From Bacteroidales bacterium (GTDB lineage: Bacteria > Bacteroidota > Bacteroidia > Bacteroidales > UBA3824): 33,551 nt of DNA. The stretch is from assembly GCA_017964465.1 (NCBI GenBank), contig JAGCRY010000054.1, forward strand, positions 1 to 33,551. Direction: 5' to 3'. Every line of letters starts with the position of its first letter. Positions within the stretch are counted from its first letter, which is position 1. The translations under genes and the position numbers were made by a program. Below, piece after piece: positions 1,666 through 33,408 of this stretch. Under the pieces are notes generated by a model. The model saw only the letters and a list, made by a program, of their open reading frames with translations, searched no databases and was not told the DNA's origin.

Positions 1666-1977
1666 TTATTTTACACGTTTTGCCTGCGCCACTGGGTCGC
1701 AGCGGCAGTCCCAAAAGCCAACAACGTTGACAACATCGCCATCAACACGATAGACTAACCTACTCAAATTGTTGATAAAGATACTGCGATAAACATCGGC
1801 GCGGTCTTCAAATAAAGGGTCTTTGGGGGCAATGTCTGGATTGCGTTTCAACAACTCCTCCGTTTCATACACTTTAAGCATAAAATTTTGACGAGCCTTT
1901 TTGCCAAAACTTCTTTTTATATAATTGGCAACATCCCTCAATGATTCTATTGCATCAGGATCCCAAATTGTTGTCAT
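1666..1977 (-). CDS. RelE/ParE-family toxin
   Basis: A 103-residue protein of the RelE/ParE superfamily, whose members are ribosome-dependent mRNA nucleases (RelE) or gyrase inhibitors (ParE). The family pattern is clear: an N-terminal helix with AIESLRDVANYIKRSFG, then the C-terminal strands YRSIFINNLSRLVYRVDG and VVNVVGFWDCRCDP, which resemble the usual 'RxfxxNNysRxiYrvd...iWDcRrdP' signature. The start overlaps the antitoxin stop by 4 nt (ATGA), typical of translationally coupled toxin-antitoxin pairs with the antitoxin first. Which target is hit cannot be told from sequence. mqnC follows after 8 nt. Confidence 0.85.
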   Translation of the reverse strand: MTTIWDPDAIESLRDVANYIKRSFGKKARQNFMLKVYETEELLKRNPDIAPKDPLFEDRADVYRSIFINNLSRLVYRVDGDVVNVVGFWDCRCDPVAQAKRVK

Positions 1978-2303
1978 ACTGCCTCCAATAATAAATCATG
2001 TTCTACTGATGCTCCCATTAATGTGGCTTCATCTTCGGCATCTTCTTTCGCGAACTCCTCTCTAAGTTGACGCATAACAACATCTCCCGGTATTCCAAGA
2101 CCCGCAGCCAAATGCGCCTCTGCCCTATCAAGCATCGCATTGATTTCGTCCATCGTGTAAGGACGGAATTTTTCTTCGTGGGTTGTTTCGTCATAGTAAT
2201 AACGACCAACCGCATATTGGTCAACATCCGTTATGGCAGAAACGTCTATGCCTGTGCCATCCACTATCGCCTTAATTTCGTCTGTTGTATATTTTGTTTT
2301 CAT
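1974..2303 (-). CDS. Probable antitoxin partner of the RelE/ParE toxin
   Basis: A 109-residue acidic protein that I do not recognise by family. It is called an antitoxin from position and size: it precedes the toxin, overlaps it by 4 nt, and has its own promoter (2336-2343 with an upstream TTG). It is rich in Asp and Glu, with a predicted helical segment MDEINAMLDRAEAHLA near the middle, as expected for a toxin-wrapping region. No clear ribbon-helix-helix or helix-turn-helix could be assigned by eye, so autoregulation is an assumption. Confidence 0.6.
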   Translation of the reverse strand: MKTKYTTDEIKAIVDGTGIDVSAITDVDQYAVGRYYYDETTHEEKFRPYTMDEINAMLDRAEAHLAAGLGIPGDVVMRQLREEFAKEDAEDEATLMGASVEHDLLLEAV

Positions 2304-5818: not shown

Positions 5819-6534
5819 TGGAAAAGACAGACGCCATAATCCTCAACACCGTTAAATACGGCGACAACAAACTGATAATCAACGCCTACACACGCGAGTG
5901 TGGGCGCATGACGCTCAGTGTTGCCATACCGAAAACGAGGAACCACACGTCTGCTCTGCCCTACTGCCAGCCGCTTTTCCAGAATGAAATCGAATACTCA
6001 ACAAAAGGCAACATCAGCCGAGCCGCAAGGATAACGCCGGTGTTCACATACAAGTCGATACCGTTTGACACAGCCAAAATGTCAGTTGTCATGTTTTTGG
6101 CAGAAATACTGACAAAAACTCTGACATACTCCGAGAAGAACGATGACATGTTTTCATACCTTTCTACAAGCCTGCGCCTACTCGACGACCAGGAATACAA
6201 GGGTTTAAACTTCCACATCAAATTTCTCCTGCAACTTACTAAATACATGGGATTTACTCCTATGGGAAGTTTTTCGGAAACACTGCCATGCTTCGACCTT
6301 ATGAAATCTAAATTTGTGGAAAACAGAGTTGGAGTTCCACATTTGATAACGCCGCCATACTCATTGACATTCAGTCAAATCTTGGACAAAGATTTTCTTG
6401 AATGTGAGCAGATGGAACTCAGCGGCGACACACGCAGCCACCTGCTGCAAAAAACTTTGGACTATTACCGCTACCACTTTGAAACGCTTGACAACATCAA
6501 GAGCCTCGAAGTGCTGCAAAAAATATTTCACTAA
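5818..6534 (+). CDS. recO: DNA repair protein RecO
   Basis: RecO helps RecR load RecA on single-stranded DNA coated by SSB during gap repair. The 238-residue length fits the family. The N-terminal OB-fold opening is typical (KTDAIILNTVKYGDNKLIINAYTRECG), followed by an all-helical C-terminal half (LNFHIKFLLQLTKYMGFTPMG). I saw no CxxC zinc motif, which only some RecO proteins have. It overlaps the DUF4296 stop by one base and is followed after 18 nt by the next gene, so it sits inside an operon. Confidence 0.9.
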   Translation: MEKTDAIILNTVKYGDNKLIINAYTRECGRMTLSVAIPKTRNHTSALPYCQPLFQNEIEYSTKGNISRAARITPVFTYKSIPFDTAKMSVVMFLAEILTKTLTYSEKNDDMFSYLSTSLRLLDDQEYKGLNFHIKFLLQLTKYMGFTPMGSFSETLPCFDLMKSKFVENRVGVPHLITPPYSLTFSQILDKDFLECEQMELSGDTRSHLLQKTLDYYRYHFETLDNIKSLEVLQKIFH

Positions 6535-6552: not shown

Positions 6553-7026
6553 ATGAGCAAAATTGGTACATTGGTAATCGGACAGGGCATGGGACCTGCC
6601 AAATTCGGAATGACCGAGGAAGAAATCATCGACCTTTTCGGCAAACCCGACGAGCGCGAAATCGAGTCATACGGCGAAGACCCGGACGAAAAGACGCTCA
6701 CACTCTTCTACGACAACATCATGTCAGACTTCTCATTCGACCTCGCTGAGGGCGAGGACGGCAAGGACGTCTTCAGGCTGAGCTCAATCCTCTGCACAAA
6801 CCAGGAGTACAACCTCGACAACAAAATCAAGTTTGGAGACTCGGAGGAAACACTCCTCAAATACACACGCAACCTCAAAGTCGCCGACCCGGAAATCGAG
6901 GTTGACAAGGAAACAAACGAGAGAATCCTCATGTTCGACGACCTTAGCCTCTTAGCAATTTTCGACAGTGAAGGTCTCTCCGCAATCCAAATCGGATACT
7001 GGGACGAGGAAGACACGGAAGAATAA
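6553..7026 (+). CDS. Small acidic cytoplasmic protein with two SmpA-like half-repeats (unknown function)
   Basis: A 157-residue, strongly acidic protein without signal peptide or membrane segment, ending in DEEDTEE. I do not recognise its family. The two halves look alike: GMGPAKFGMTEEEIIDLFGKPDE followed by a beta-rich stretch ending LFYDNIMSDFSFD, then NKIKFGDSEETLLKYT followed by LMFDDLSLLAIFDSEGLSAIQIG. The phrase 'xxGMTxEEVxxLxGxPD' recalls BLIP/SmpA-type folds, suggesting a duplicated binding module. It sits 18 nt after recO and 31 nt before the S41 protease, clearly in the same transcription unit. Confidence 0.6.
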   Translation: MSKIGTLVIGQGMGPAKFGMTEEEIIDLFGKPDEREIESYGEDPDEKTLTLFYDNIMSDFSFDLAEGEDGKDVFRLSSILCTNQEYNLDNKIKFGDSEETLLKYTRNLKVADPEIEVDKETNERILMFDDLSLLAIFDSEGLSAIQIGYWDEEDTEE

Positions 7027-7057
7027 AGAAATAGTTTAATCAAAAATCAAAAACGCA

Positions 7058-8722
7058 ATGAAAATCAAAAAATTGACTAAACCAAAAATAATCGTCGCGG
7101 CGGTGGTTCTTGCGGCGATTATTCCGCTGCTGTCATTCACGAAGGACGACGACGACGACTTCGAGTTAATAAAAAACCTCGAAATCTTCCATTCCCTCAT
7201 GCGTGACATCCGCACGATGTACGTGGAGGAAACCTCGAGCGGCGAACTCATCAAGACCGCCATCGACAAAATGCTTGAATCCCTCGACCCATACACAGTG
7301 TATTACCCCGAATCACTCGTGGAGGACGTCAGGATAATGAACACCGGCGAATATGCAGGCATAGGCGCAAACATCGAGGAGATAAACGGACAGTACACCG
7401 TCTCCACAATCTTCAAAGGCACACCGGCGGACAAGGCGGGCATGAAGATTGGAGACATAATCCTGAAAATCAACGACAAAGATGTCAAAGGCAAAACCTA
7501 CGAGGAACTCGAATTGATTCTGAAAGGCGAGCCGGGCACGCCTGCAAACTTCCAAGTCATGCAGGACGGACAAACCAAGTCGTTCCAGGTTAAACGTGCA
7601 ATGATCGACATCCCCGACATCCCATATTACGGCGAGGTTGCGCCAAAGATCGGCTACATCAATCTCTCAGGCTTCACACAGGACTGTAGCAAACAATTCC
7701 GCGACGCATTCATGCAACTCAAAAACGAGAATCACATCGACAAACTCATCATCGACCTCCGCTTCAACCCCGGCGGACTTCTCGTGGAGGCTGTGAACGT
7801 CGTCAATATCTTCGTGGACAAAGGCGAGAAAATCGTTGAGATGAAAGGACGTGTCGAAGAATGGAACAACACATTCAAAACCGAGAAAGCCGCACTCGAC
7901 ACAGAAATCCCCATTGTGGTACTCGTGAACGGCAATTCTGCATCGGCGGCTGAGATTGTTTCGGGCGCATTACAAGACCTCGACCGCGCAGTCATCATCG
8001 GCGAAAAAACCTACGGCAAAGGCCTCGTGCAGACCACGAAAAAGTTAGTTTTCAACTCCACGATGAAGGTCACGACTGCAAAATACTACATCCCATCGGG
8101 ACGCTGCATCCAGAAACTCGACTATGGACACAAGGACTCCACGGGCAAGGCAACGCAGATTTCTGAATCTCAATCCAAGAGCTTCAAGACCAAAAACGGC
8201 CGCCCCGTGAAGGACGCCGGCGGAATCATGCCCGACATTCTCGTAAACAGCGACACGATTGCATACGTATTGGAGAATCTCATTGAAAACAACATAATCT
8301 TCGATTTCGCTACCCAATACCAGAAGAAACACCCCACGGTAAAGAAACCTGAAGAATTTGAGATTTCCGATAGCGAAATACTTGATTTGAAGGCATTTGC
8401 CGGCGACAAACTCTACAAGTACAGCACAATGGTGGACGAAGACCTCGACGAGCTGACGAAAGACATCAAGTCTGAATACCCCAACCCCTCGATAAACGCC
8501 GCCCTGAACACGCTCAAAAAGCAAATCGAAACCGAAAAGCGCAAAGAATTTGAGAAAAACACGTCCCAAATCCGCACCGCGCTCGGCTCCGAAATCATCC
8601 GGCGGTACTATTATGACGAGGGCATGATTCAATACACACTCAAGCACGACCAGTTCATCGACAAGGCGGTCGAGGTGTTGAATAATGCAATTCTCTATCG
8701 GAAAACGCTCTCAGGAAAATAG
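7058..8722 (+). CDS. S41-family C-terminal processing peptidase (CtpA/Prc-like)
   Basis: A 554-residue tail-specific serine protease that acts in the periplasm on the C-termini of envelope proteins. Order of parts: one N-terminal membrane anchor or signal (IIVAAVVLAAIIPLLSF), an N-terminal helical domain with SLDPYTVYYPE, a PDZ domain at about 95-185 (GEYAGIGANIEEINGQY, GTPADKAGMKIGDIIL), and the S41 core. The catalytic pair appears as Ser296 (NGNSASAAEIVSGALQD) and Lys321 (GEKTYGKGLVQ), 25 residues apart as in E. coli Prc. A C-terminal helical tail of about 150 residues follows. It is the last gene of the recO operon. Confidence 0.9.
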   Translation: MKIKKLTKPKIIVAAVVLAAIIPLLSFTKDDDDDFELIKNLEIFHSLMRDIRTMYVEETSSGELIKTAIDKMLESLDPYTVYYPESLVEDVRIMNTGEYAGIGANIEEINGQYTVSTIFKGTPADKAGMKIGDIILKINDKDVKGKTYEELELILKGEPGTPANFQVMQDGQTKSFQVKRAMIDIPDIPYYGEVAPKIGYINLSGFTQDCSKQFRDAFMQLKNENHIDKLIIDLRFNPGGLLVEAVNVVNIFVDKGEKIVEMKGRVEEWNNTFKTEKAALDTEIPIVVLVNGNSASAAEIVSGALQDLDRAVIIGEKTYGKGLVQTTKKLVFNSTMKVTTAKYYIPSGRCIQKLDYGHKDSTGKATQISESQSKSFKTKNGRPVKDAGGIMPDILVNSDTIAYVLENLIENNIIFDFATQYQKKHPTVKKPEEFEISDSEILDLKAFAGDKLYKYSTMVDEDLDELTKDIKSEYPNPSINAALNTLKKQIETEKRKEFEKNTSQIRTALGSEIIRRYYYDEGMIQYTLKHDQFIDKAVEVLNNAILYRKTLSGK

Positions 8723-9917: not shown

Positions 9918-10030
9918 ATGCCCATTTTTCGGGCGATTTACATGGATGATTTCATTGAGACAAGCATTTTATCAATCCCGAGCGCCAAAGGCTAATTTCG
10001 GCACAAAAACAAGGCATATCACGCCGAATT

Positions 10031-10086
10031 GGAGTGCGGGCGGCTCGCCCGCTTTCAAAAAAAAGCAGGCGAGCCGCCTGCACTCC
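10031..10086. repeat. REP-like inverted pair, copies 2 and 3
   Basis: Two 22-bp elements in opposite orientation (10031-10052 and 10065-10086) are separated by a 12-base A-rich spacer. The first is the exact reverse complement of 2376-2397. The second differs at two positions, and both changes fall on paired bases of the internal stem, so GCGGGCG/CGCCCGC becomes GCAGGCG/CGCCTGC. Such paired elements (BIMEs) are typical of REP sequences between convergent genes and can end or stabilise transcripts. Confidence 0.8.
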
Positions 10087-10208
10087 ATATCCCCATTTCT
10101 TTTGAAAAACTCGACTTCCCGCACACGACAAACTAAAAAATCGAAAGGAAATCAAGATATAATTTTTGTAAAAATACACTAACTATCTGATTTTCAATCA
10201 CTTCTCCC

Positions 10209-12083
10209 CTACTCCGCAAAATTATCGTTTTCAGGCGTTTCAGCCGCATTTTTGCCAGAAAGGGCAGGATTGTTGTCTTCGGGATGGAAATGCTGGTAGA
10301 TTTTCATGGCGCGGTCGAGATTGACAACTTTTCGGAGTTCGATGAGCGGAAGTTCGGAAATTTTGTTGACCGAGCCGAAAGTCGTCAAAAGTTTTCCGAT
10401 GGTCTTATCACCGATTCCCGGTATGTCCTCGAGAATTGAATGAATCATTCCTTTCGACCTCTTGTTCCTATGGAAAGTAATACCGAAGCGATGCGCTTCG
10501 TCGCGGAGATGTTGAATGACTTTCAGGGTCGGCGATGTACGGTCAAGATAAAGCGGAATCGGGTCGTTTGGATAGAATATTTCTTCCAATCTTTTTGCAA
10601 GTCCGATAACCGCAATTTTAGTATCAAGCCCCAAAGCCTGCAGCGTTTCATACGCACAACGCAACTGACCTTTGCCACCGTCGATGACAATCAACTGCGG
10701 CAAATCCTTGCCCTCTTCACTAAGGCGTTTATAGCGTCGATAAACAACTTCACGCATCGTCGCAAAGTCGTCCGCGCCGACAACAGTTTTCACGTTGAAC
10801 AAACGGTAATCACGTTTGTAAGGTTTGCCATTCCTGAAAACCACACACGACGAAACAGGGTTTGTGCCTTGTATGTTGGAGTTATCAAAACATTCAATAT
10901 GTCTCGGCTCGACATCAAGTTGAAGGTCGTCCTTCATTTTTTTCATCAAATTATTCACGGACGCATCGGGATCGACGAGTGTGCGCTGACGTTGCTGCTC
11001 CGACATATAGAGCCTGCAATTCCTCAGCGACCAATCCAACAACTGTTTTTTGTCGCCGGTTTTCGGGACTGTGGATTTTATGTTTTCCACATCAAACTCA
11101 ATCTCAAAAGGCAGTATAAATTCTGTGGCGGGTTCTCCAATGTTGAACTCCGAAAAATGTATGTCAGCCAAAGTCGTCGCGAGAATATCTTGTGGAGATT
11201 CGTCTGCACGGTCTTTAATTTCGCGCGTGAATGAACGGATGATAATGCTGTTGCTGACCTTCATGAAATTGATGTAGTAATAATCATCACGCTCATCCTT
11301 GAGAATTGAATAGACTTCGACGGTGTTTGGAATATATACGGAAATCACATTCTTGGCGTGATAATTATTGAGCAAATCATATTTTTCTTTTATGATTTGC
11401 GCCTTCTCAAATTCGAGTTTCCCAGAAAGCTCCATCATCTGCTCGCGCAAAATATTGAGGACTTCGGCAGTGCGACCACTGAGGATTTTGCGGACGCTGT
11501 TGAGATTGTTTGCATACTCATCTTTGCTCACATCGCCGATGCATGGGGCGCAACAATTCTTGATATGATAATCAAGACAAACATCATACTTACCTTTTTT
11601 CACATTTTCCTCGGTCAGCGGAGTGCGGCACGTTCTGAGTGAAAATGTTCTTCTTATCATGTCCAACACTTCACGCATTGCAAAAATCGAAGTGTAAGGG
11701 CCGTAATATTGAGAGCCGTTGTTGAGCTTTTTGCGCGTGAAAAACACACGCGGATAATCTTCATTTGTGATGCAAATCCACGGATAAGTCTTGTCATCTT
11801 TGAGGAGAATGTTATATCGCGGCTGGAATTTTTTTATCAATTTGTTTTCAAGCAGCAGCGCATCCGTCTCCGTATCGACACAAATATGCAACAAATCATG
11901 AATGTGTTTCACGAGGATTGCAGTCTTTCCGACTTGGTTCTTTTCACGGAAATATGACGAAACCCTATTGCGCAAATTCTTCGCTTTCCCCACATAAATC
12001 ACAGTGCCGTTCTCGTCGAGGAAATTGTAAACCCCAGGCGACAGCGGCAAAGTTTTTACTTTATATTCGAGCGACTCGTTCAT
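10209..12083 (-). CDS. uvrC: Excinuclease ABC subunit C (UvrC)
   Basis: UvrC makes both incisions around a DNA lesion in nucleotide excision repair after UvrAB recognition. The 624-residue protein has, in order, the GIY-YIG nuclease domain (PGVYNFLDENGTVIYVGKA then LRNRVSSYF), a UVR motif for UvrB binding (LSGKLEFEKAQIIKEKYDLL), the RNase-H-like endonuclease domain (HIECFDNSNIQGTNPVSSCV with its catalytic Asp, and LIVIDGGKGQL), and a C-terminal helix-hairpin-helix pair (LEDIPGIGDKTIGKLLTTFG). A short acidic tail follows. It is the last gene of the ten-gene minus-strand run, 26 nt after mnmG. Confidence 0.96.
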   Translation of the reverse strand: MNESLEYKVKTLPLSPGVYNFLDENGTVIYVGKAKNLRNRVSSYFREKNQVGKTAILVKHIHDLLHICVDTETDALLLENKLIKKFQPRYNILLKDDKTYPWICITNEDYPRVFFTRKKLNNGSQYYGPYTSIFAMREVLDMIRRTFSLRTCRTPLTEENVKKGKYDVCLDYHIKNCCAPCIGDVSKDEYANNLNSVRKILSGRTAEVLNILREQMMELSGKLEFEKAQIIKEKYDLLNNYHAKNVISVYIPNTVEVYSILKDERDDYYYINFMKVSNSIIIRSFTREIKDRADESPQDILATTLADIHFSEFNIGEPATEFILPFEIEFDVENIKSTVPKTGDKKQLLDWSLRNCRLYMSEQQRQRTLVDPDASVNNLMKKMKDDLQLDVEPRHIECFDNSNIQGTNPVSSCVVFRNGKPYKRDYRLFNVKTVVGADDFATMREVVYRRYKRLSEEGKDLPQLIVIDGGKGQLRCAYETLQALGLDTKIAVIGLAKRLEEIFYPNDPIPLYLDRTSPTLKVIQHLRDEAHRFGITFHRNKRSKGMIHSILEDIPGIGDKTIGKLLTTFGSVNKISELPLIELRKVVNLDRAMKIYQHFHPEDNNPALSGKNAAETPENDNFAE

Positions 12084-12109: not shown

Positions 12110-13996
12110 TTACCTTCCGAGATGTATCAACAGAGTGTTAATATCCGACGGGCTGACGCCGGGGATTCGCGATGCCTGACCGATATTTGCGGGACGGATT
12201 CGGGCGAGTTTTTGACGCGCTTCCGTGGAGAGCGACAACAATTTTTCATAGTCGAACCCTTCCGGAATTTTCACGTAATCGAGCCGTGAAAGTTTTTCAG
12301 CCGTCTGCTCTTCCCTATCAATGTAGCCTTGATACTTCAATTTAATCTCCGCCGATTCAATTTCATAACGTCCGAAACGTTTCAGGAATGGGAACAAACC
12401 CTTCAATTCCGACAGCGCAACTTCCGTCCTCAACACAATCGCCGCAAGTCTGTTGCCCTGCACGAGCGGTTTGCCGCCCTTGGACTCGATGTAAGGATTG
12501 ATTTTTTCACGTGAAACAGACGTGTTTTTACAATATTCAAGAATCTTGTTGACGTTTGCTTCCTTTGTTTTGAACGTGCTGAGGCGTTCCTCGGACGCCA
12601 ATCCAATATCAAAACCTCGTTGAGTTAACCTTTCATCAGCATTATCCTGGCGCAACAAAATCCTGTACTCGGAGCGCGATGTAAACATCCTGTAAGGCTC
12701 ATCAACGCCCTTCGTAACGAGGTCGTCAATCAAAACTCCAATGTAAGCATCCTTGCGCGAGAGTGTAAATTCATCCTTGCCGAGGAACGACAGCGCAGCA
12801 TTGACGCCCGCAACCAAACCCTGACAAGCCGCCTCCTCATATCCTGTCGTGCCGTTCACTTGTCCAGCGAAGAAACAGCCCTTCACAACCTTGGATTCTA
12901 ATGTATGCAACAACTGTGTCGGGTCAAAATAATCGTATTCAATCGCATAACCCGGACGGAAAATCTTACAATTTTCAAGTCCAGGAATCTTGCGGATTGC
13001 GGCATATTGAACCTCAAAAGGCAGCGACGATGAAAAGCCATTCAAATAATATTCGCACGTTTCAGTGCCCTCCGGTTCGAGGAAAACAGGGTGCGACTGC
13101 TTATCCGCAAACGTCACAATCTTAGTTTCGACCGACGGACAATACCTCGGACCGGTCGATTTTATCGTGCCGTTGAACAACGGAGAACGGTCAAAACCCT
13201 TCCTCAATTCATCATGGACGGCGGGATTCGTGTATGAAATGTAGCAATCACGTTGCGGCAAACGTGAAAATTCACGACCAAAAATTGAAATTTTTCCAGT
13301 ATTCTCATTGACCAAATATGAAAAAGAATCGGGATTTTCATCGCCTGATTGAGCAGTCATCACAGAAAAATCGATGGTTCTTCCATCAATTCGGGCGGGA
13401 GTTCCAGTCTTCATGCGGCTTGTTTTCACACCTGCCGCAATCAAAGTTTCCGTCAAACCGTGGCTCGGAATCTCGCCAATCCTGCCGCCTTCATAACGAT
13501 TCATGCCGACGTGCATCAAACCATTTAAGAAAGTTCCAGCCGTAACGACAACTTTTGAGCATTTAAATTTCACGCCAAAAACGGTTTCAATGCCCACTAC
13601 CCTGCCCTCATCAACATCGATACTCTTCACAGAATCCTGCCAAAAATATAAATTTGGAATTAATTCCAACAAATTTCTCCAATTCACAGAAAACTTCACG
13701 CGGTCACATTGGGCGCGTGGAGACCACATCGCGGGACCTTTCGAGCGGTTCAACATCCTAAATTGTATCGAACTCATGTCCGTCACAACGCCCGTCAAGC
13801 CTCCGAGCGCATCAATTTCGCGTACAATCTGCCCCTTCGCAATGCCGCCGATGGCGGGATTGCAGGACATTTGGGCGAACTTGAACATATCCATAGTTAT
13901 GAGCAAAGTCTTCACACCGAGCCTTGCAGACGCTGCCGCAGCCTCACATCCGGCGTGTCCTGCGCCTATCACAATTACATCGTATTCCTCAATCAT
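12110..13996 (-). CDS. mnmG: tRNA uridine-5-carboxymethylaminomethyl modification enzyme MnmG (GidA)
   Basis: MnmG, with MnmE, builds the cmnm5 group on the wobble uridine of certain tRNAs. The 628-residue length is normal. The N-terminal FAD-binding motif is intact (VIGAGHAGCEAAAASARLG), as are the GidA signatures GPRYCPSVETKIVTF and GQVNGTTGYEEAACQGL and the C-terminal MnmE/tRNA-binding helical domain ending in RIPGVSPSDINTLLIHL. The start overlaps the ybeY stop by 4 nt. A parS-like sequence lies inside the gene at 12503-12518. In E. coli gidA lies beside oriC; here the candidate origin is about 13 kb away. Confidence 0.97.
   Translation of the reverse strand: MIEEYDVIVIGAGHAGCEAAAASARLGVKTLLITMDMFKFAQMSCNPAIGGIAKGQIVREIDALGGLTGVVTDMSSIQFRMLNRSKGPAMWSPRAQCDRVKFSVNWRNLLELIPNLYFWQDSVKSIDVDEGRVVGIETVFGVKFKCSKVVVTAGTFLNGLMHVGMNRYEGGRIGEIPSHGLTETLIAAGVKTSRMKTGTPARIDGRTIDFSVMTAQSGDENPDSFSYLVNENTGKISIFGREFSRLPQRDCYISYTNPAVHDELRKGFDRSPLFNGTIKSTGPRYCPSVETKIVTFADKQSHPVFLEPEGTETCEYYLNGFSSSLPFEVQYAAIRKIPGLENCKIFRPGYAIEYDYFDPTQLLHTLESKVVKGCFFAGQVNGTTGYEEAACQGLVAGVNAALSFLGKDEFTLSRKDAYIGVLIDDLVTKGVDEPYRMFTSRSEYRILLRQDNADERLTQRGFDIGLASEERLSTFKTKEANVNKILEYCKNTSVSREKINPYIESKGGKPLVQGNRLAAIVLRTEVALSELKGLFPFLKRFGRYEIESAEIKLKYQGYIDREEQTAEKLSRLDYVKIPEGFDYEKLLSLSTEARQKLARIRPANIGQASRIPGVSPSDINTLLIHLGR
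12503..12518. other. parS-like ParB site 1 (15/16 match)
   Basis: TTTTTCACGTGAAACA differs from the established parS consensus TGTTTCACGTGAAACA at one position. It lies within the mnmG coding sequence, as many chromosomal parS sites do. See the finding on the cluster. Confidence 0.65.
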
Positions 13997-14424
13997 TTCT
14001 TGAATTGCTTATTAAAAACATCAATATAAAAATCCTCCTTCCTGTGTATTTCAGCCTCCTGTTCGTCGGTCTGGTCGTCATATCCGACGAGGTGCATCAC
14101 ACCATGAATCATCACGCGCAACAACTCTGTTTCACGCGAAACATTAAACTTTTGAGCATTATCAACAATCCTGTCGTAGCTGATGAACATATCACCACTC
14201 ACATATTTATCCTCGACATAATCAAAAGTGATGATGTCAGTGTAATAATCATGACCAAGATACTGCTTGTTCATGTTCCACAAATACTCATCGGAACAGA
14301 AAATATACGACAAGTTTCCCGTGAAACAATCCTCATTTTTCACCGCATAATCAATCCAAGCGGTCAGAGATTGCTCGTCGGGAAGCGCAAATTCGACGTC
14401 TTCAAAATTGAAATCAATGTTCAT
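13993..14424 (-). CDS. ybeY: Endoribonuclease YbeY (16S rRNA 3' maturation)
   Basis: YbeY is a metal-dependent ribonuclease in rRNA maturation and ribosome quality control. The 143-residue size fits. The metal motif reads HGVMHLVGYDD rather than the proteobacterial HGxLHLxGYDH: the first two His ligands are present and the third is Asp, which as I recall is common in Bacteroidota YbeY. The upstream segment EYLWNMNKQYLGHDYYTDIITFDY is also typical. The start overlaps the upstream RsbW-like gene by 11 nt and the stop overlaps mnmG by 4 nt. Two parS-like sequences lie inside it. Confidence 0.93.
   Translation of the reverse strand: MNIDFNFEDVEFALPDEQSLTAWIDYAVKNEDCFTGNLSYIFCSDEYLWNMNKQYLGHDYYTDIITFDYVEDKYVSGDMFISYDRIVDNAQKFNVSRETELLRVMIHGVMHLVGYDDQTDEQEAEIHRKEDFYIDVFNKQFKK
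14128..14143. other. parS-like ParB site 2 (15/16 match)
   Basis: TGTTTCACGCGAAACA differs from the parS consensus only at position 10 (T to C). It sits inside ybeY, where it encodes the NVSRET segment. Confidence 0.65.
14313..14328. other. parS-like ParB site 3 (14/16 match)
   Basis: AGTTTCCCGTGAAACA differs from the consensus at positions 1 and 7. It also lies inside ybeY, 185 bp from site 2. Confidence 0.45.
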
Positions 14425-14833
14425 TTTCGCTGGTTTTAGTCAAATCGAAATACATATTGATAAGCGTGCCGCCCTCAAGGAACTCGGTTTTGTCGGAAAG
14501 TTCACGGATGAGATACACTCCCCTACCGCTAAACTTCAAGATATTTTCAGGCTTCGTCGGGTCGCCAAGTTTGTCAGGGTCAAAGCCAAGACCTTCGTCC
14601 TTGACGGACAAAACAAGATAGTTTCCGTCAATTTGGGTGCTGACAAAAACATACTTCGTCGGGTCGCAACGGTTGCCGTGCGTAATGGCGTTTGTGACGG
14701 ACTCCAAGGCGGCAACAAGGATGTTGCCATACAAGTCCTCGGAGATTTTGTACTCCGCGCTGAGCTGGTCGATGAACTTTTCAACGACCGTTATGTTCTC
14801 AATGTCCGATGTGATTGTGATAAATGTTTTCAT
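14414..14833 (-). CDS. RsbW-like ATP-binding protein (anti-sigma-factor kinase fold)
   Basis: A 139-residue GHKL ATPase of the RsbW/SpoIIAB type (HATPase_c_2). The nucleotide-binding boxes are complete: N-box ALESVTNAITHGN, G1 box VKDEGLGFDPD, and G2 box FSGRGVYLIRELSD. In Firmicutes such proteins bind sigma factors and phosphorylate anti-anti-sigma partners. Bacteroidota homologues are widespread without a known sigma-B, so the target is unknown. I chose the ATG at 14831-14833; the longer frame would need a TTG start and adds three residues. It lies 11 nt after the DUF4175 stop and overlaps ybeY by 11 nt. Confidence 0.85.
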   Translation of the reverse strand: MKTFITITSDIENITVVEKFIDQLSAEYKISEDLYGNILVAALESVTNAITHGNRCDPTKYVFVSTQIDGNYLVLSVKDEGLGFDPDKLGDPTKPENILKFSGRGVYLIRELSDKTEFLEGGTLINMYFDLTKTSENEH

Positions 14834-24890: not shown

Positions 24891-26030
24891 CTAAATAAAT
24901 AACTCTGAAATTATGTAATCTGAAATGAACAAGCCATTAATGTTGAGCCTTACATAACGGTCATTAACCTCAAAATACTCAGTCAAATCTCTACGGCGGA
25001 GATTTTTCTCAAAATGTTCTTTATACTTGGCGAAATGCACCGTCAAATACTCTTTATCAATTCCTTCACGGGTCCGCAGACGGAGCATGATGAACTCATT
25101 GAAAAGGTCGTCGGGAGAAAGTATTTCATGCTCGGCGTAATGTCTATTTTCGGCGATTTGTCGCTGATAATCAGCAAGTTTTCGCTCATTCCAACTGCGG
25201 CTCCCTTCATAATACGAATGTGCCGACGGTCCAAAACCAAGATAAGGCACTGATTTCCAATAGTTTGAATTGTGGCGGGAATGAAGACCAGGCAATGAAT
25301 AATTGGAGATTTCATAATGATTGTAGCCATTGGACTCCAACAATTCATGTATCAAAAGAAACTGCCGAAGATAGAAATCATCATCCATCTTACGGATTTC
25401 ACCCTTGCGAAGTTTCATCATGAAAGGCGTATTTTCCTCAATACCAAGACTATACGCTGAAATATGTGGAATATTTTCATCTATGAAAAACCGAAAAGCA
25501 TCCTCAATTTGATAATCATCCAAGGTCTCATAACCAAAAATGTAATCAACCGAAAAATTCTCACAACCATATTTGCAGCATAGTTGTAAATATCTGTAAT
25601 TGTCTGAAACACAATGTCTTCTGCCTAAATATTTCAAACCAGCATCAGTCATCGCCTGAAAACCAGTACTTAACCTGTTGACAAAGCCCAATGACTTCAA
25701 ACCTGCAAAATATTCGTCTGTGGCATGTTCAGGATTGATTTCCAAGGTACATTCAAGGGCTTCAGAAGAAGAAAGATTGTAGTTATCGGCGATGGCGCGG
25801 AAGATGCTCTCTATATGCTTCAAAGGCAATATCGATGGAGTTCCACCGCCAAAATATATGGTGTCAACTGTCTGATTTTTAAACAAATAAGCCTTCTGCG
25901 TGATTTCATCGACCACAGTTTTTATGAAATCTGCAGCAAAATCACTATCTTTGTAGCGTTTTATGGAGTAGAAGTCGCAATAGCCACATTTACTCTCACA
26001 AAACGGGATATGAACATAAAGACCTGACAT
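24891..26030 (-). CDS. hemW: Radical SAM heme chaperone HemW (formerly coproporphyrinogen III oxidase-like)
   Basis: HemW binds heme and passes it to membrane respiratory proteins; it is often mislabelled oxygen-independent coproporphyrinogen oxidase. The 379-residue protein has the radical SAM cluster motif at Cys11, Cys15 and Cys18 (HIPFCESKCGYCDFYS), the SAM-binding YFGGGTPS (residues 59-66), and the HemN-family TLEINPEHATDEY and RLSTGFQAMTDAGLKYLGR. The C-terminal HemN_C region carries LGFGPSAHSYY. It converges with the DUF481-like gene and diverges from the vanZ-like gene. Confidence 0.92.
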   Translation of the reverse strand: MSGLYVHIPFCESKCGYCDFYSIKRYKDSDFAADFIKTVVDEITQKAYLFKNQTVDTIYFGGGTPSILPLKHIESIFRAIADNYNLSSSEALECTLEINPEHATDEYFAGLKSLGFVNRLSTGFQAMTDAGLKYLGRRHCVSDNYRYLQLCCKYGCENFSVDYIFGYETLDDYQIEDAFRFFIDENIPHISAYSLGIEENTPFMMKLRKGEIRKMDDDFYLRQFLLIHELLESNGYNHYEISNYSLPGLHSRHNSNYWKSVPYLGFGPSAHSYYEGSRSWNERKLADYQRQIAENRHYAEHEILSPDDLFNEFIMLRLRTREGIDKEYLTVHFAKYKEHFEKNLRRRDLTEYFEVNDRYVRLNINGLFISDYIISELFI

Positions 26031-26402: not shown

Positions 26403-26843
26403 CTACTTGACCGGCATTTTATCGATGCGACGCTGATGGCGGCCGCCCTCAAACTCTGTGGAGAGGAACATGTCGAGAATCTTCAACGCCTCGTCCTTGG
26501 AGATGAACCTCGCGGGCATGGAGAGCACATTTGCGTTGTTGTGGGAGCGTGCAAGGCGCGAAATCTCCTCATTCCAGCACAACGCAGCGCGGATGCCCTG
26601 GTGCTTGTTGGCGGTCATGGCGATGCCGTTTCCGCTGCCGCAGATTGTAATGCCGTAATAATCAGGCGATTTCTCGACTTCAACGGCAAGCGGGTGCGCA
26701 TAGTCGGCATAATCACAGCTCTCGGCGGAGTTTGTGCCGAGGTCGGTGACATCAAAACCCTTCTTCTGGAGGTAATCCTTGACGAAGAGTTTGAGTTCGT
26801 AGCCTGCATGGTCGGAGGCTATGAATAATTTGCTGATTTTCAT
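26403..26843 (-). CDS. rpiB: Ribose-5-phosphate isomerase B
   Basis: RpiB interconverts ribose-5-phosphate and ribulose-5-phosphate in the pentose phosphate pathway. From the ATG at 26841-26843 the protein has 146 residues. Active-site features are ASDHAGYELK (residues 9-18), Cys68 in ICGSGNGIAM (the base), and His101 in RSHNNANVLSMPAR. I rejected the longer frame because it runs 15 codons into the putative replication origin with non-family sequence. Its upstream side faces nadA across the origin-like spacer. Confidence 0.94.
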   Translation of the reverse strand: MKISKLFIASDHAGYELKLFVKDYLQKKGFDVTDLGTNSAESCDYADYAHPLAVEVEKSPDYYGITICGSGNGIAMTANKHQGIRAALCWNEEISRLARSHNNANVLSMPARFISKDEALKILDMFLSTEFEGGRHQRRIDKMPVK

Positions 26844-27401
26844 AATATTAACTATAAAAAAGTATTTAAAATGTTTACTAAAAATCACAGTGTTGATAAC
26901 TTTTATACAGCAAAGTTAACGAAAATGTTGACTTTTAGGGCATTAGCGTTATATAAAAATATCACAAAAACCGCCATAACGCGCTATCAGTCAGGATTTC
27001 GGCGAGGTTTTCCACTAATAATGTGGAAAACGATGTTGAAAACCGAGTCTCCGATGTTGACAACATCCGAAAGCCGATGCAAAGTTAAAAATTATCAACA
27101 AAACAAACTTTTTTTCCACAAAATATCAACCGTGAATCAACAATTTTATAACTTAGAACCATGAAACAGTTAGCAAGTGTAAAATTCGCGTAACAATTTT
27201 TGTGGCATTGTTGATAAACTCTGCAATTTGTTAAGCCAAAAAGATTTGCAAGCGTCAAAAATTTTAGGCGAAAAATAGTTACGATGTTGAAAACTTCGGT
27301 ACAAAATTACTCAAATCCGAGTTATCAACAATATCAACAGGCTATAAAAATCATAATAAATTTAAAAATATAAAAAAAATTATAATAATACCGAAAAAGC
27401 A
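26844..27401. other. Candidate chromosomal replication origin (oriC)
   Basis: This 558-base gene-free stretch lies between divergent rpiB and nadA. It contains nine DnaA-box-like 9-mers (consensus TTATCCACA). TTATCAACA occurs at 26891-26899(-), 27092-27100(+), 27209-27217(-) and 27322-27330(+); ATATCAACA at 27331-27339(+); TTTTCCACA at 27022-27030(-) and 27112-27120(+); and TTTTCAACA at 27034-27042(-) and 27285-27293(-). Two small palindromes occur: TTTTCCAC/GTGGAAAA (27008-27030) and GATGTTG-A-CAACATC (27053-27067). The last 60 bases before nadA are almost only A and T, as expected of a duplex-unwinding element. dnaA is not in the window, so this is inference from sequence. Confidence 0.75.
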
Positions 27402-28385
27402 ATGGAAGGAGAAATGAAACCGACTTTGAAAAATGGCCATCTCGACATGCCGGTACCCGAGGGCATCGACCTCAAGGCAGAGATTGACCGCATGAAGAAA
27501 GAGAAGAACGCCGTCATTCTGGCGCATTATTATACGACTGCGGAGGTTCAGGAAATTGCCGACTACACCGGCGACAGCCTCGGCCTGAGCCAGCAGGCGG
27601 CGAAAACCGACGCTGACATCATCGTGTTTGCGGGTGTGCATTTCATGGCTGAGACCGCTAAAGTCCTGTCGCCTAATAAGAAAGTGCTCATTCCAGACCT
27701 GATGACAAGCTGTTCGCTTGCGGATTCGGTGAATGAGAAGTCCCTCGCCGAGTTCAAAAAGAAATACCCGGGTCACACTGTCATTTCATACGTGAACACC
27801 ACGGCGGAGGTCAAGGCGCTGACTGACATTGTTGTAACGTCGTCAAACGCTGTGAAAATTGTTTCTCAACTTCCTGAGGACGAGCCGATTATCTTTGGTC
27901 CAGACCGCAATCTCGGTAATTATGTTCAGAAGGTCACCGGCCGCAAAAACATGGTGATTTGGGATGGAGGTTGTCATGTTCATGACCATTTCGACGCGAA
28001 AAAACTCGCCGAACTCAAAACGCAGCATCCCGCCGCAAAGGTTCTCGCCCACCCCGAATGTAACGAGACTATTCTCGCTCAGGCTGATGTCATCGGCGCA
28101 ACTTCTGCATTGCTCAAAGCGTCGTATGAACTGCCCGAAACTGAGTTCATTGTAGCCACCGAGCCGGGCATTTTCTATGAAATGACAAAACGCAGCCCAA
28201 ACAAGACTTTCATCCCCGTGCCAAACGAGAACGGCCACCCGCTCAACGTTTGTGTAAACATGAAGCGTAACTCATTGAAAAAGATTTACTTGACTCTCAA
28301 ATATGAGTTTCCCGAGGTCGATTTGCCTGAAGAGTTGTCGAGGAAGGCAAAGGTCTGCATCGAGAGGATGATGGCAATGTCGTAG
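27402..28385 (+). CDS. nadA: Quinolinate synthase NadA
   Basis: NadA joins iminoaspartate and dihydroxyacetone phosphate to make quinolinate for NAD synthesis, using an oxygen-sensitive 4Fe-4S cluster. The 327-residue protein shows the three ligand cysteines at Cys104 (LMTSCSLADS), Cys191 (WDGGCHVHDHF) and Cys284 (LNVCVNMKRNSLKKIY), plus AHYYTTAEVQEIADYTGDSL and HPECNETILAQADVIGATS. The ATG at 27402 is used; a second ATG at 27414 is possible. Neither nadB nor nadC is adjacent. Its stop codon lies within a perfect 28-bp palindrome. Confidence 0.95.
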   Translation: MEGEMKPTLKNGHLDMPVPEGIDLKAEIDRMKKEKNAVILAHYYTTAEVQEIADYTGDSLGLSQQAAKTDADIIVFAGVHFMAETAKVLSPNKKVLIPDLMTSCSLADSVNEKSLAEFKKKYPGHTVISYVNTTAEVKALTDIVVTSSNAVKIVSQLPEDEPIIFGPDRNLGNYVQKVTGRKNMVIWDGGCHVHDHFDAKKLAELKTQHPAAKVLAHPECNETILAQADVIGATSALLKASYELPETEFIVATEPGIFYEMTKRSPNKTFIPVPNENGHPLNVCVNMKRNSLKKIYLTLKYEFPEVDLPEELSRKAKVCIERMMAMS

Positions 28386-30521: not shown

Positions 30522-31751
30522 ATGTTACTTGAATTTACAGTAGGAAACTTTCGTTCGTTTTATGAGAAGAAGACATTTTCTATGTTGGCTCAATCTCTTA
30601 AAGAAGAGCCTAAGGAGAATGTCGCTAAAGAATTGTCATACAATGTCTTGAAAACCGTTGCGGTTTATGGAGCCAATTCGAGTGGAAAGTCTAATTTGGT
30701 AAAGGCAATACAAACGATGACAAATGTTGTCCTTTCTTCTGTAAAACTTAATCCAGAAGATAAACTCCCATACAAGCCTTTTTTACTTTTAAAAGACAAT
30801 TTGGAGCCGACCTTTTTTGAAGCAACGTTCTTAAAAGACGATTTTTGCTATCGTTATGGTTTTTCATATAACGAAACAGACATTGTTGAAGAATGGCTGT
30901 TTCGCAAAACCACTCCACGTTCAAAGGAGCAGGCATTATTCATCAGAAACAATGAAGGAATTGCATTTGAAGACAAGAGGTTTCCGGAAGGAATTGGTTT
31001 GGAATCAAGGGTGAATAACAATCGTCTTTTCCTCTCTCTATGTGCACAACTTGGTGGCAAGATTTCAGGTCGGCTGATTTCGTGGTTTCATTATACACTT
31101 TTTTTGGTTTCGGGTCTTGATAATCAAAAATACGGTTTTTATTCAAAAAGACTTTTCCGTTTAAAATCACCTTTAAGTAAAAGAGCTTTGGAGTTTTTCA
31201 AAATGCTTCAATTGGGATTTGAAGATATATTCACTTATGCTGACGAACCAAACAATAGAATAACTCTTAATTCAGATCGCATTAAAATCGAATCTGTTCA
31301 CCGTTTGTATAATAATTATGGGGAAGTCTGTGGACATGTTAATTTCGTTTTTGACGACAAGGAATCATCAGGCACAAAAAAAATGTTTGACATGGCAGGT
31401 CATATTTTTGAAGTGTTAGATAGCGGTTGGGTTCTCGTCATTGACGAGTTGGACGCCAAGATGCATCCGTTGATTTCACAGCAAATCATCAAGTTGTTCA
31501 ATGATCCTAAAACCAATCCTAATAATGCGCAGTTGATTTTCACTACTCACGACACGCATCTCTTGTCGTCAAAAATGCTCCGTCGCGATCAGATTTGGTT
31601 TACAGAGAAAAATGATGTGGAACAGACTGATTTGTATTGTCTTACGGACATTGTTCTACCCGACGGCTCTAAGCCCCGCAACGATGCAAATTACGAGAAA
31701 AACTACATTGCAGGTCGTTACGGCGCAATTCCATATATCGTTAACGACTAA
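30522..31751 (+). CDS. RloA/AbiLi-like AAA ATPase (putative phage defence)
   Basis: A 409-residue ABC/SMC-type ATPase of the AAA_15/AAA_21 group. It opens with the usual LLEFTVGNFRSFYEKKTFSM, has Walker A GANSSGKS at 50-57, an ABC-signature-like SSGTKKMF, Walker B VLVIDELDAKMHP (304 onward) and a switch histidine His343 in IFTTHDTHLLSS. This is the layout of RloA and of the lactococcal abortive-infection protein AbiLi. It is followed after 11 nt by an RloB-family gene, the expected partner. Known relatives are thought to sense phage infection and stop host growth; the trigger is unknown. The region is AT-richer than its neighbours by eye and unrelated to flanking genes, which suggests horizontal gain. 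Confidence 0.85.
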   Translation: MLLEFTVGNFRSFYEKKTFSMLAQSLKEEPKENVAKELSYNVLKTVAVYGANSSGKSNLVKAIQTMTNVVLSSVKLNPEDKLPYKPFLLLKDNLEPTFFEATFLKDDFCYRYGFSYNETDIVEEWLFRKTTPRSKEQALFIRNNEGIAFEDKRFPEGIGLESRVNNNRLFLSLCAQLGGKISGRLISWFHYTLFLVSGLDNQKYGFYSKRLFRLKSPLSKRALEFFKMLQLGFEDIFTYADEPNNRITLNSDRIKIESVHRLYNNYGEVCGHVNFVFDDKESSGTKKMFDMAGHIFEVLDSGWVLVIDELDAKMHPLISQQIIKLFNDPKTNPNNAQLIFTTHDTHLLSSKMLRRDQIWFTEKNDVEQTDLYCLTDIVLPDGSKPRNDANYEKNYIAGRYGAIPYIVND

Positions 31752-31762
31752 AACTCTTGACT

Positions 31763-32500
31763 ATGCCGGCAAACAGAATAAAATTGGATCCCGCGCTTGA
31801 ACGCCGCTATGCTCGTAAGGAACAAAGGCGCAAATCGAGGCAGATTGTGTGCAAAATTCTCATCGTGTCCGAGGGAACTAAAACAGAGCCAAATTACTTC
31901 AAGAATTTCGATTCAAGAGAAATGGGAAAGTATATTGTCAATGTTGAAGTAAAAGGTGAAGCCGACAATACTATCAATGTGGTTAATACGGCGATAGAAT
32001 TAAGTAAAAAAGAAGAATATGATAGCGTTTGGGCGGTGTTTGACAAGGATTCGTTTTCTGATGACAGATTCAACGCCGCCATCATAAAGGCTGAAAAAAA
32101 CGGCATTGGCTGTGCTTGGAGCAATGAGGCGTTTGAATTGTGGTTTTTGTATCATTTTCAAAACAGGGTTACGGCGATGAGCCGAAAAGAATACGCGGAT
32201 GCTATTTCCGATGCTGTGAACAAGTCGTCAAATTACAAAGAGAAAAAGAAGTTCAAGTATGATAAACCTGACAAAAATCTTTATAAAATTATGACCACAT
32301 ACGGCTCTATGGACAATGCCATAAAGTATGCCGAAGCCCAAAGCAAAAAATACACGGACAAGCGTTATTCCACGCATAATCCGTGTACGATGGTATATAA
32401 ACTTGTCAGGTTGTTGATAGGTCAGGACTCAGATTTCAATAAATATATGGCGCAGAAAGTGGAAGGTAAGTTGACTAATCCCCTCCCCTACACTATCTGA
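31763..32500 (+). CDS. RloB/AbiLii-like protein (Toprim-like effector)
   Basis: A 245-residue protein of the RloB family. From the ATG at 31763 (a TTG two codons upstream was rejected) the N-terminus is very basic (RRYARKEQRRKSRQ). Then come the family blocks: LIVSEGTKTEPNYF (about 33-46, a Toprim-like Glu motif), WAVFDKDSF with the paired Asp residues, SNEAFELWFLYHF, and NPCTMVYKLVRLL at the C-terminus. These acidic motifs suggest a metal-dependent nuclease, so it is the likely effector of the pair. Its last 13 bases overlap the convergent M14-like gene. Confidence 0.85.
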   Translation: MPANRIKLDPALERRYARKEQRRKSRQIVCKILIVSEGTKTEPNYFKNFDSREMGKYIVNVEVKGEADNTINVVNTAIELSKKEEYDSVWAVFDKDSFSDDRFNAAIIKAEKNGIGCAWSNEAFELWFLYHFQNRVTAMSRKEYADAISDAVNKSSNYKEKKKFKYDKPDKNLYKIMTTYGSMDNAIKYAEAQSKKYTDKRYSTHNPCTMVYKLVRLLIGQDSDFNKYMAQKVEGKLTNPLPYTI

Positions 32501-33408
32501 AACGCTGCCGTTTTTTCCATTATCAATGCTTTGGAGTGGGCGAAGAAGATTACGCCGTCTTTGGGGGCGGAGATTTGGGCAAGGACGCTGCCGTTGTAGG
32601 GGTCGAGGATTTTGGCGATTGTTTCGGAGCGGCGGACTTCGTTGCCTGAGGATTTCAATTTGTAAAAAATACCGGCGCACGGGGCTGAGATTGTGGTAAA
32701 ATCTTTGTCTTCAAGCACTTGACTCTTATAACCCGGAAAAACATCCCTTTTTACTAATCCATTTTCAGACAGGAAACGGATAATCGACAGCCAAGTCTGT
32801 TTGGCGGAGGTTTTGTCGATGACGTCGGTGGTGCCGGCGTAGATGGAGTATGCCGCAGTGTTCCAAATTTGCCAATTGTAATTAAGCATCACAGTATCAA
32901 AAGGTTCGGGAGTTTTAAGATAGACATACGGAAACCCAAAAACCTTTGCGCCTGCGGAGATGTCAACGGCTGTTTTGATTACCCTTACGTGCGGCACAAA
33001 CTCGCCCGCAAAATGGTAACTCGCCAACTGAACGCCTGTTTCATAGTCTTTTAACTTGTCAAACAACGCCGAGGCAATGCGCTGAGTGGTTTCGCCCAAG
33101 CCGTAACCCGGAAACATTCGGTTGATGTCGGTATTGTCCATTGGCCAAAAACGCTTGCCGATGTTCATCGAAAAATGGTTGGCGGATGGAATAACGAGGA
33201 TTTCGTGGTCGTGAGCCAACATTCCGCGCTGTTCTAAATCGGTGAGAATCCTCACCAACTGACTGCAAACAAACTGTTGCTGCACCTCGTCGCCACGCAT
33301 TGCGCCCACAATTGCCACCGACTTTTCGCCGCTGCCAAATACGTATCCACTTATGTGAAATGCCTCACGGTAAGGCGATTTCATCGAAAATATCTTAATC
33401 TTTTCCAT
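32488..33408 (-). CDS. M14/AstE-like (succinylglutamate desuccinylase/aspartoacylase family) protein
   Basis: A 306-residue protein of the AstE/AspA-type M14 family, zinc hydrolases that cleave amide bonds of acylated amino acids or peptides. The family core is visible (KSVAIVGAMRGDEVQQQFVC, HEILVIPSANHFSMN, MDNTDINRMFPGY), followed by a C-terminal beta-barrel with biotinyl-like turns (AGIFYKLKSSGNEVRRSETI and ISAPKDGVIFF). The usual zinc motif HxxE reads RGDE here, so the first His is Arg, while His in LASYHFAGEFVPH remains. Substrate and even activity are uncertain. A paralogue lies two bases upstream, and the 3' end overlaps the RloB-like gene. Confidence 0.78.
   Translation of the reverse strand: MEKIKIFSMKSPYREAFHISGYVFGSGEKSVAIVGAMRGDEVQQQFVCSQLVRILTDLEQRGMLAHDHEILVIPSANHFSMNIGKRFWPMDNTDINRMFPGYGLGETTQRIASALFDKLKDYETGVQLASYHFAGEFVPHVRVIKTAVDISAGAKVFGFPYVYLKTPEPFDTVMLNYNWQIWNTAAYSIYAGTTDVIDKTSAKQTWLSIIRFLSENGLVKRDVFPGYKSQVLEDKDFTTISAPCAGIFYKLKSSGNEVRRSETIAKILDPYNGSVLAQISAPKDGVIFFAHSKALIMEKTAAFQIV

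Follow-up and report, generated by a model that had tools for sequence, protein, structure and literature searches.

Replication origins that lie far from dnaA are already known in the Bacteroidetes, and the locus described here adds another predicted DnaA-type oriC. In the first chromosome of Prevotella intermedia, an oriC was predicted in a region of about 480 bp that contains multiple DnaA boxes at the switch of the GC skew, far from dnaA; such a distance is common in the Bacteroidetes (PMC4755523). The origins of Bacteroides caecimuris and Muribaculum intestinale were placed by a parS cluster together with the inversion of the GC skew, and were not always located at dnaA (PMC10197239). The basal unwinding system of the Bacillus subtilis oriC is formed by tandem DnaA boxes and DnaA-trios (PMC8287927). 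R-type DnaA boxes have the form TTWTNCACA, and deviations from it reduce the affinity (PMC5043019). Among predicted boxes, the word TTATCAACA has been listed once, for Cyanothece, and no explicit report of TTATCAACA boxes or of a nadA-linked origin in Bacteroidetes was found in the literature searched.

A preliminary description of the locus had proposed a candidate oriC between rpiB and nadA. Box clustering, a skew switch, conservation, tracking of the skew through rearrangement and nearby parS-like sites bear this out, and as judged from the sequence data the probability that the rpiB/nadA spacer is the chromosome replication origin was put at about 95%.

DnaA boxes and A/T tract of the rpiB/nadA spacer

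The window analysed is one whole contig of 33,551 nucleotides (C174), taken from an assembly of 2.37 Mb in 218 contigs that is 64% complete. The spacer is flanked by rpiB on the minus strand (start codon at 26843) and nadA on the plus strand (start at 27402), both confirmed by NCBIfam. The nearest named record for NadA was found in a Bacteroidales MAG from yak omasum, with 81% identity. Searches of the window for tRNAs, Rfam families and riboswitches found none, in line with the earlier statement that no gene, tRNA or riboswitch explains the spacer. The following features were assigned; fractions give identical positions in the four closest genomes.

26844..27401: candidate oriC region, the rpiB/nadA spacer, 558 bp, 30% G+C, assigned from box enrichment, skew and identity with congeners
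26891..26899, minus strand: predicted DnaA box TTATCAACA, 9/9
27008..27016, plus strand: weak predicted DnaA box TTTTCCACT, one base off, TTTTCAACA in the closest relatives
27022..27030, minus strand: predicted DnaA box TTTTCCACA, 6/9
27034..27042, minus strand: predicted DnaA box TTTTCAACA
27055..27063, minus strand: weak predicted DnaA box TTGTCAACA, one base off
27092..27100, plus strand: predicted DnaA box TTATCAACA, 9/9
27112..27120, plus strand: predicted DnaA box TTTTCCACA, 9/9
27209..27217, minus strand: predicted DnaA box TTATCAACA, 9/9
27285..27293, minus strand: predicted DnaA box TTTTCAACA, 9/9
27322..27330, plus strand: predicted DnaA box TTATCAACA, first of a tandem pair bordering the A/T tract; all three gene settings retain the pair
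27331..27339, plus strand: predicted DnaA box ATATCAACA, one base off, second of the tandem pair
27340..27390: A/T-rich tract, proposed unwinding element, 92% A+T
27343..27360, plus strand: candidate DnaA-trio-like run (conserved ATAAWAATCATAAT) at the start of the unwinding element, suggested by alignment

The spacer contains eight exact TTWTCMACA sites, in both orientations, and three sites that are one base off. The clustering of a 9-mer family in both orientations was thereby confirmed, while the nine sites originally counted were an undercount. Four identical copies of TTATCAACA had also been reported, and were recovered at 26891 (-), 27092 (+), 27209 (-) and 27322 (+). With 254 occurrences of TTWTCMACA in the 2.37 Mb genome, 0.06 boxes were expected in the spacer against the 8 found (Poisson P about 3e-15), a clustering beyond chance as looked for in an oriC. 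Closely spaced direct box pairs were observed only twice in the whole assembly, both times in this spacer. Among four close genomes, box bases were 93% identical compared to 76% outside the boxes (p 0.0006).

Among 98 near-matches from nine diverse origins of the genus, 69 have A and 29 have C at position 6 of the box, and TTATCAACA was the commonest shared 9-mer, with 35 copies in eight of the nine origins. Of the earlier idea of a lineage-specific box with A at position 6, the A-favouring family is borne out and the lineage specificity is not: the family is widespread in Bacteroidales, and in the genus these counts describe a preference and not a fixed change. At loci upstream of nadA, A was likewise preferred in some Prevotella, Duncaniella and other Muribaculaceae, Dysgonomonadaceae and one Bacteroidaceae MAG; other nadA-side loci of Prevotella were mixed at this position or had C. 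C was found in Chitinophaga barathri, Chitinophaga sp. E66, one Chitinophaga MAG (L108), Sphingobacterium and Pedobacter helvus, and A in another Chitinophaga MAG (L096). The recognition helix of DnaA in the genus reads GGRDHSTV or GNRDHSTV, which is canonical except for a T to S exchange at the position of E. coli T435. As S occurs in both C-box and A-box genomes, the helix was rejected as an explanation of the A at position 6.

The nearly pure A/T tract noted previously beside the boxes corresponds to 27340-27390 and adjoins the conserved tandem pair, the position of an unwinding element, and would be the site of opening. One plan is common to all gene settings of the cluster: two abutting boxes, 3-4 bases, an ATAAWAATCAT-like run and a long A/T stretch. 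DnaA-trios were defined as one or more boxes, a spacer of at most 16 bp and at least three trios of the form 3'-NAN-5'. Trio-like runs such as ATA ATA ATC AT were observed in four congeners (G001, G004, G009 and G016). The run in the window, ATA AAA ATC ATA ATA, has one non-fitting step, and chance runs arise easily in DNA this rich in A/T.

GC skew, parS-like sites and the location of dnaA

The cumulative GC skew of the window drops from the left end to a minimum at 25,715 and then climbs, a local minimum for this contig. Whether the skew minimum of the full chromosome falls at 26.8-27.4 kb had been suggested as a check; the local minimum of the window adjoins the spacer, and the contigs of seven congeners have theirs near the cluster. 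Skew at third codon positions changed across the spacer from -0.274 on the left to -0.066 on the right in plus-strand genes, and from -0.028 to +0.190 in minus-strand genes. The shift of about +0.21 was the same on both strands, and gene direction is therefore not the cause of the skew change. On each side, 78-79% of the coding bases point away from the spacer.

Sites similar to parS were searched with the word TGTTTCACGTGAAACA, allowing two or three mismatches. Three were found at up to two mismatches:

12503..12518: parS-like site TTTTTCACGTGAAACA, one mismatch, inside mnmG
14128..14143: parS-like site TGTTTCACGCGAAACA, one mismatch
14313..14328: parS-like site AGTTTCCCGTGAAACA, two mismatches

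The sites are located in mnmG and neighbouring genes, with weaker ones at 14826 and 17359. The five sites obtained at three mismatches were a count reached by none of 100 shuffles of the window. The three sites at up to two mismatches are 12-14 kb from the spacer, a distance resembling that in relatives, and in five genomes 3 of 5, 5 of 5, 5 of 6, 6 of 9 and 3 of 5 two-mismatch sites were on the contig that carries the cluster. A parS cluster is thus present near the spacer, as looked for in an oriC, and the sites in the window probably form part of an origin domain. The 140 kb surrounding dnaA in G003 contained no parS-like site at this tolerance.

The absence of dnaA from the window, as described before, was confirmed, and a search of the whole assembly, 64% complete, gave no dnaA either. 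In congeners, dnaA was located on contigs other than that of nadA, so the adjacency to dnaA/dnaN that characterizes the dnaA-linked class of oriC was not found in congeners, window or assembly. The only dnaA region examined, the same 140 kb in G003, had at most two boxes per 550 bp and no clear or sustained skew switch. That oriC and dnaA are not always adjacent, which the preliminary description had allowed for, is already published for Bacteroidetes (PMC4755523, PMC10197239).

Two other gene pairs were observed in the window. An AAA_21 ATPase gene and a gene for a RloB-like protein at 30522-32500 (+) gave AbiLi (1e-96) and AbiLii (8e-28) as best PADLOC matches, and may form an AbiL-type anti-phage system, located 3 kb from the predicted origin. 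A ParE-family toxin gene at 1666-2303 (-) is overlapped by a small upstream gene with no Pfam match, which is likely to be the antitoxin.

Conserved and rearranged predicted origins in relatives

The order rpiB-spacer-nadA was retained in eight genomes of the same genus (L002-L004, L007, L010, L012, L014 and L030) and in a yak MAG locus (L080). Each of these spacers had 8-9 exact boxes, except L014 with 4, and the spacer was 82% identical in three congeners. Conservation of the boxes between rpiB and nadA of relatives had been suggested as a check on the proposal, and such conservation, expected for an oriC, was observed. On the contigs of G003, G011, G001 and G010 (225, 130, 106 and 99 kb, lengths in descending order), the spacer was the densest box cluster, in G010 with 5 boxes and by a narrow margin. 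The sign of the skew changed near the spacer in these four, and the cumulative minimum was 2-20 kb off; in some relatives it was near and not on the cluster, at 12 kb in G003 and 20 kb in G001. nadA was present in two copies in another genome (G017:C96 and G017:C259), 94% and 80% identical to that of the window. One of them may be foreign, as this MAG has a listed contamination of 7%.

In some congeners, rpiB and nadA are separated. The cluster, with 10-11 boxes, remains upstream of rpiB without nadA in G013 and G016. In G004 and G009 neither gene adjoins it: a search with the spacer DNA matched the nadA-side end of the spacer on other contigs, and 6-7 boxes are located there between genes for a flippase and a TPR protein. 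The same flippase and TPR genes are found in the window at 22.6-24.1 kb and 20.4-22.1 kb. The skew minimum was at 5,874 against a cluster at 6,912-7,123 in G009, at 11,266 against 10,019-10,229 in G004, and at 32,946 against a cluster start of 32,075 in G016, no more than about 1.3 kb from the cluster. In G013 the strong negative skew stops at the cluster, and the formal minimum of the stretch is at 72,136, near the contig end. The skew change tracks the cluster and is independent of the genes around it, the strongest sign that the origin is marked by the box array and not by a neighbouring feature.

The differing settings of the predicted origin within one genus (G004:C112 at about 10.0-10.3 kb, L255; G009:C24 at about 6.9-7.2 kb, L254; G016:C70 at about 32.1-32.5 kb, L256) imply rearrangement breakpoints at or very near it. 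One tentative explanation, which we hold at rather less than even odds, is that the origin is a discrete cassette which local rearrangements, breaking at the origin itself, have carried into at least three settings, and that DnaA has come to prefer A at position 6 of its box with no obvious change of its DNA-reading helix to account for this.

Loci from other Bacteroidota were also inspected. In Chitinophaga sp. E66, whose chromosome is closed, the boxes on the nadA side begin at 5,616,741 and dnaA is at 108 kb. Over a 240 kb stretch the skew minimum was at 5,614,431; sampled skew was mostly negative before this minimum and mostly positive after it. A Prevotella contig had a nadA-side cluster from 63,668 and a minimum at 77,828, with negative skew before and positive skew after the cluster region. 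Duncaniella (L126) has a nadA-side box cluster; its skew was weak and irregular (517-917 kb and samples), with no clear pattern, and was dropped as a control because it was too noisy. Origins on the nadA side may be old in Bacteroidota, as judged from sampled loci and not from a survey.

Alternative explanations and comparison with known systems

DnaA boxes occur outside origins, and the spacer must also house both divergent promoters. The cluster could therefore be a site that titrates or reactivates DnaA, similar to datA or DARS, or a double promoter through which DnaA regulates rpiB and nadA. Such a role would not explain why the skew switch follows the cluster to two other settings, with only rpiB or neither gene beside it, nor the nearby parS cluster, and was regarded as very unlikely. 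Chance was also considered, given that the spacer is 70% A+T; dinucleotide-preserving shuffles (n=5000), however, had a mean of 0.07 boxes and a maximum of 2 against the 8 found, and with the boxes conserved across the genus this explanation is already refuted and practically without credence.

In many bacteria oriC is found at dnaA, and the surroundings of dnaA could not be read in the window's assembly, which lacks the gene. The true origin might accordingly be at dnaA or elsewhere, with the local skew change an inversion boundary. This was considered highly improbable: the dnaA region of G003 has neither a box cluster, parS-like sites nor a sustained skew switch, seven congeners have the skew change near the cluster, and a large distance between oriC and dnaA is common in Bacteroidetes (PMC4755523, PMC10197239). 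Five independent lines (window skew, skew of congener contigs, tracking through rearrangements, parS and the location of dnaA elsewhere) agree on a predicted oriC in the spacer, which is strongly supported.

At such an oriC, DnaA would bind the array of TTWTCMACA 9-mers, which favour A at position 6, and with it the tandem pair at 27322-27339. Starting at this pair, it would extend on one strand of the tract at 27340-27390 and open it at the nadA end, and helicase loading would then give two forks in opposite directions. ParB would gather at the parS sites 12-14 kb away and move new origins apart.

The predicted origin belongs to an uncultured rumen-type (gut-type) Bacteroidales genus in which dnaA fails as a marker, and its location would help growth-rate estimates from metagenomes and the annotation of origins in MAGs. 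A at position 6 together with placement on the nadA side could serve as a rule for locating origins in Bacteroidales, and, as the rearranged congeners indicate, the origin can be followed without reference to neighbouring genes.

Clusters of TTWTCMACA directly upstream of nadA, similar to that of the spacer, were found in Prevotella, Muribaculaceae, Dysgonomonadaceae, Chitinophaga and Sphingobacterium (L089, L102, L126, L139, L134, L148 and L085). They differ in that rpiB was not detected upstream in these seven loci and that Chitinophaga and Sphingobacteriales have mainly C at position 6. The tandem boxes, short spacer and trinucleotide-like A/T run resemble the B. subtilis basal unwinding system (PMC8287927), a partial match in the window. 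Unlike in B. subtilis, the run ATAAAAATCATAAT is mostly not 3'-GAT-5' and has one AAA step, and the cluster is not beside dnaA; any role of the run is suggested by resemblance. The gut Bacteroidetes of PMC10197239 were studied with closed genomes, Hi-C and read depth, compared to contigs alone here, and share the same parS word, within two mismatches, beside a skew inversion. The oriC of P. intermedia was predicted with E. coli boxes, and is likened here by its description and not base by base; it is also a short box-rich region at a skew switch far from dnaA, in the same order, Bacteroidales (PMC4755523). Set beside these systems, the spacer appears to be a typical DnaA-type oriC, an ordinary element with a slightly unusual DnaA binding word.
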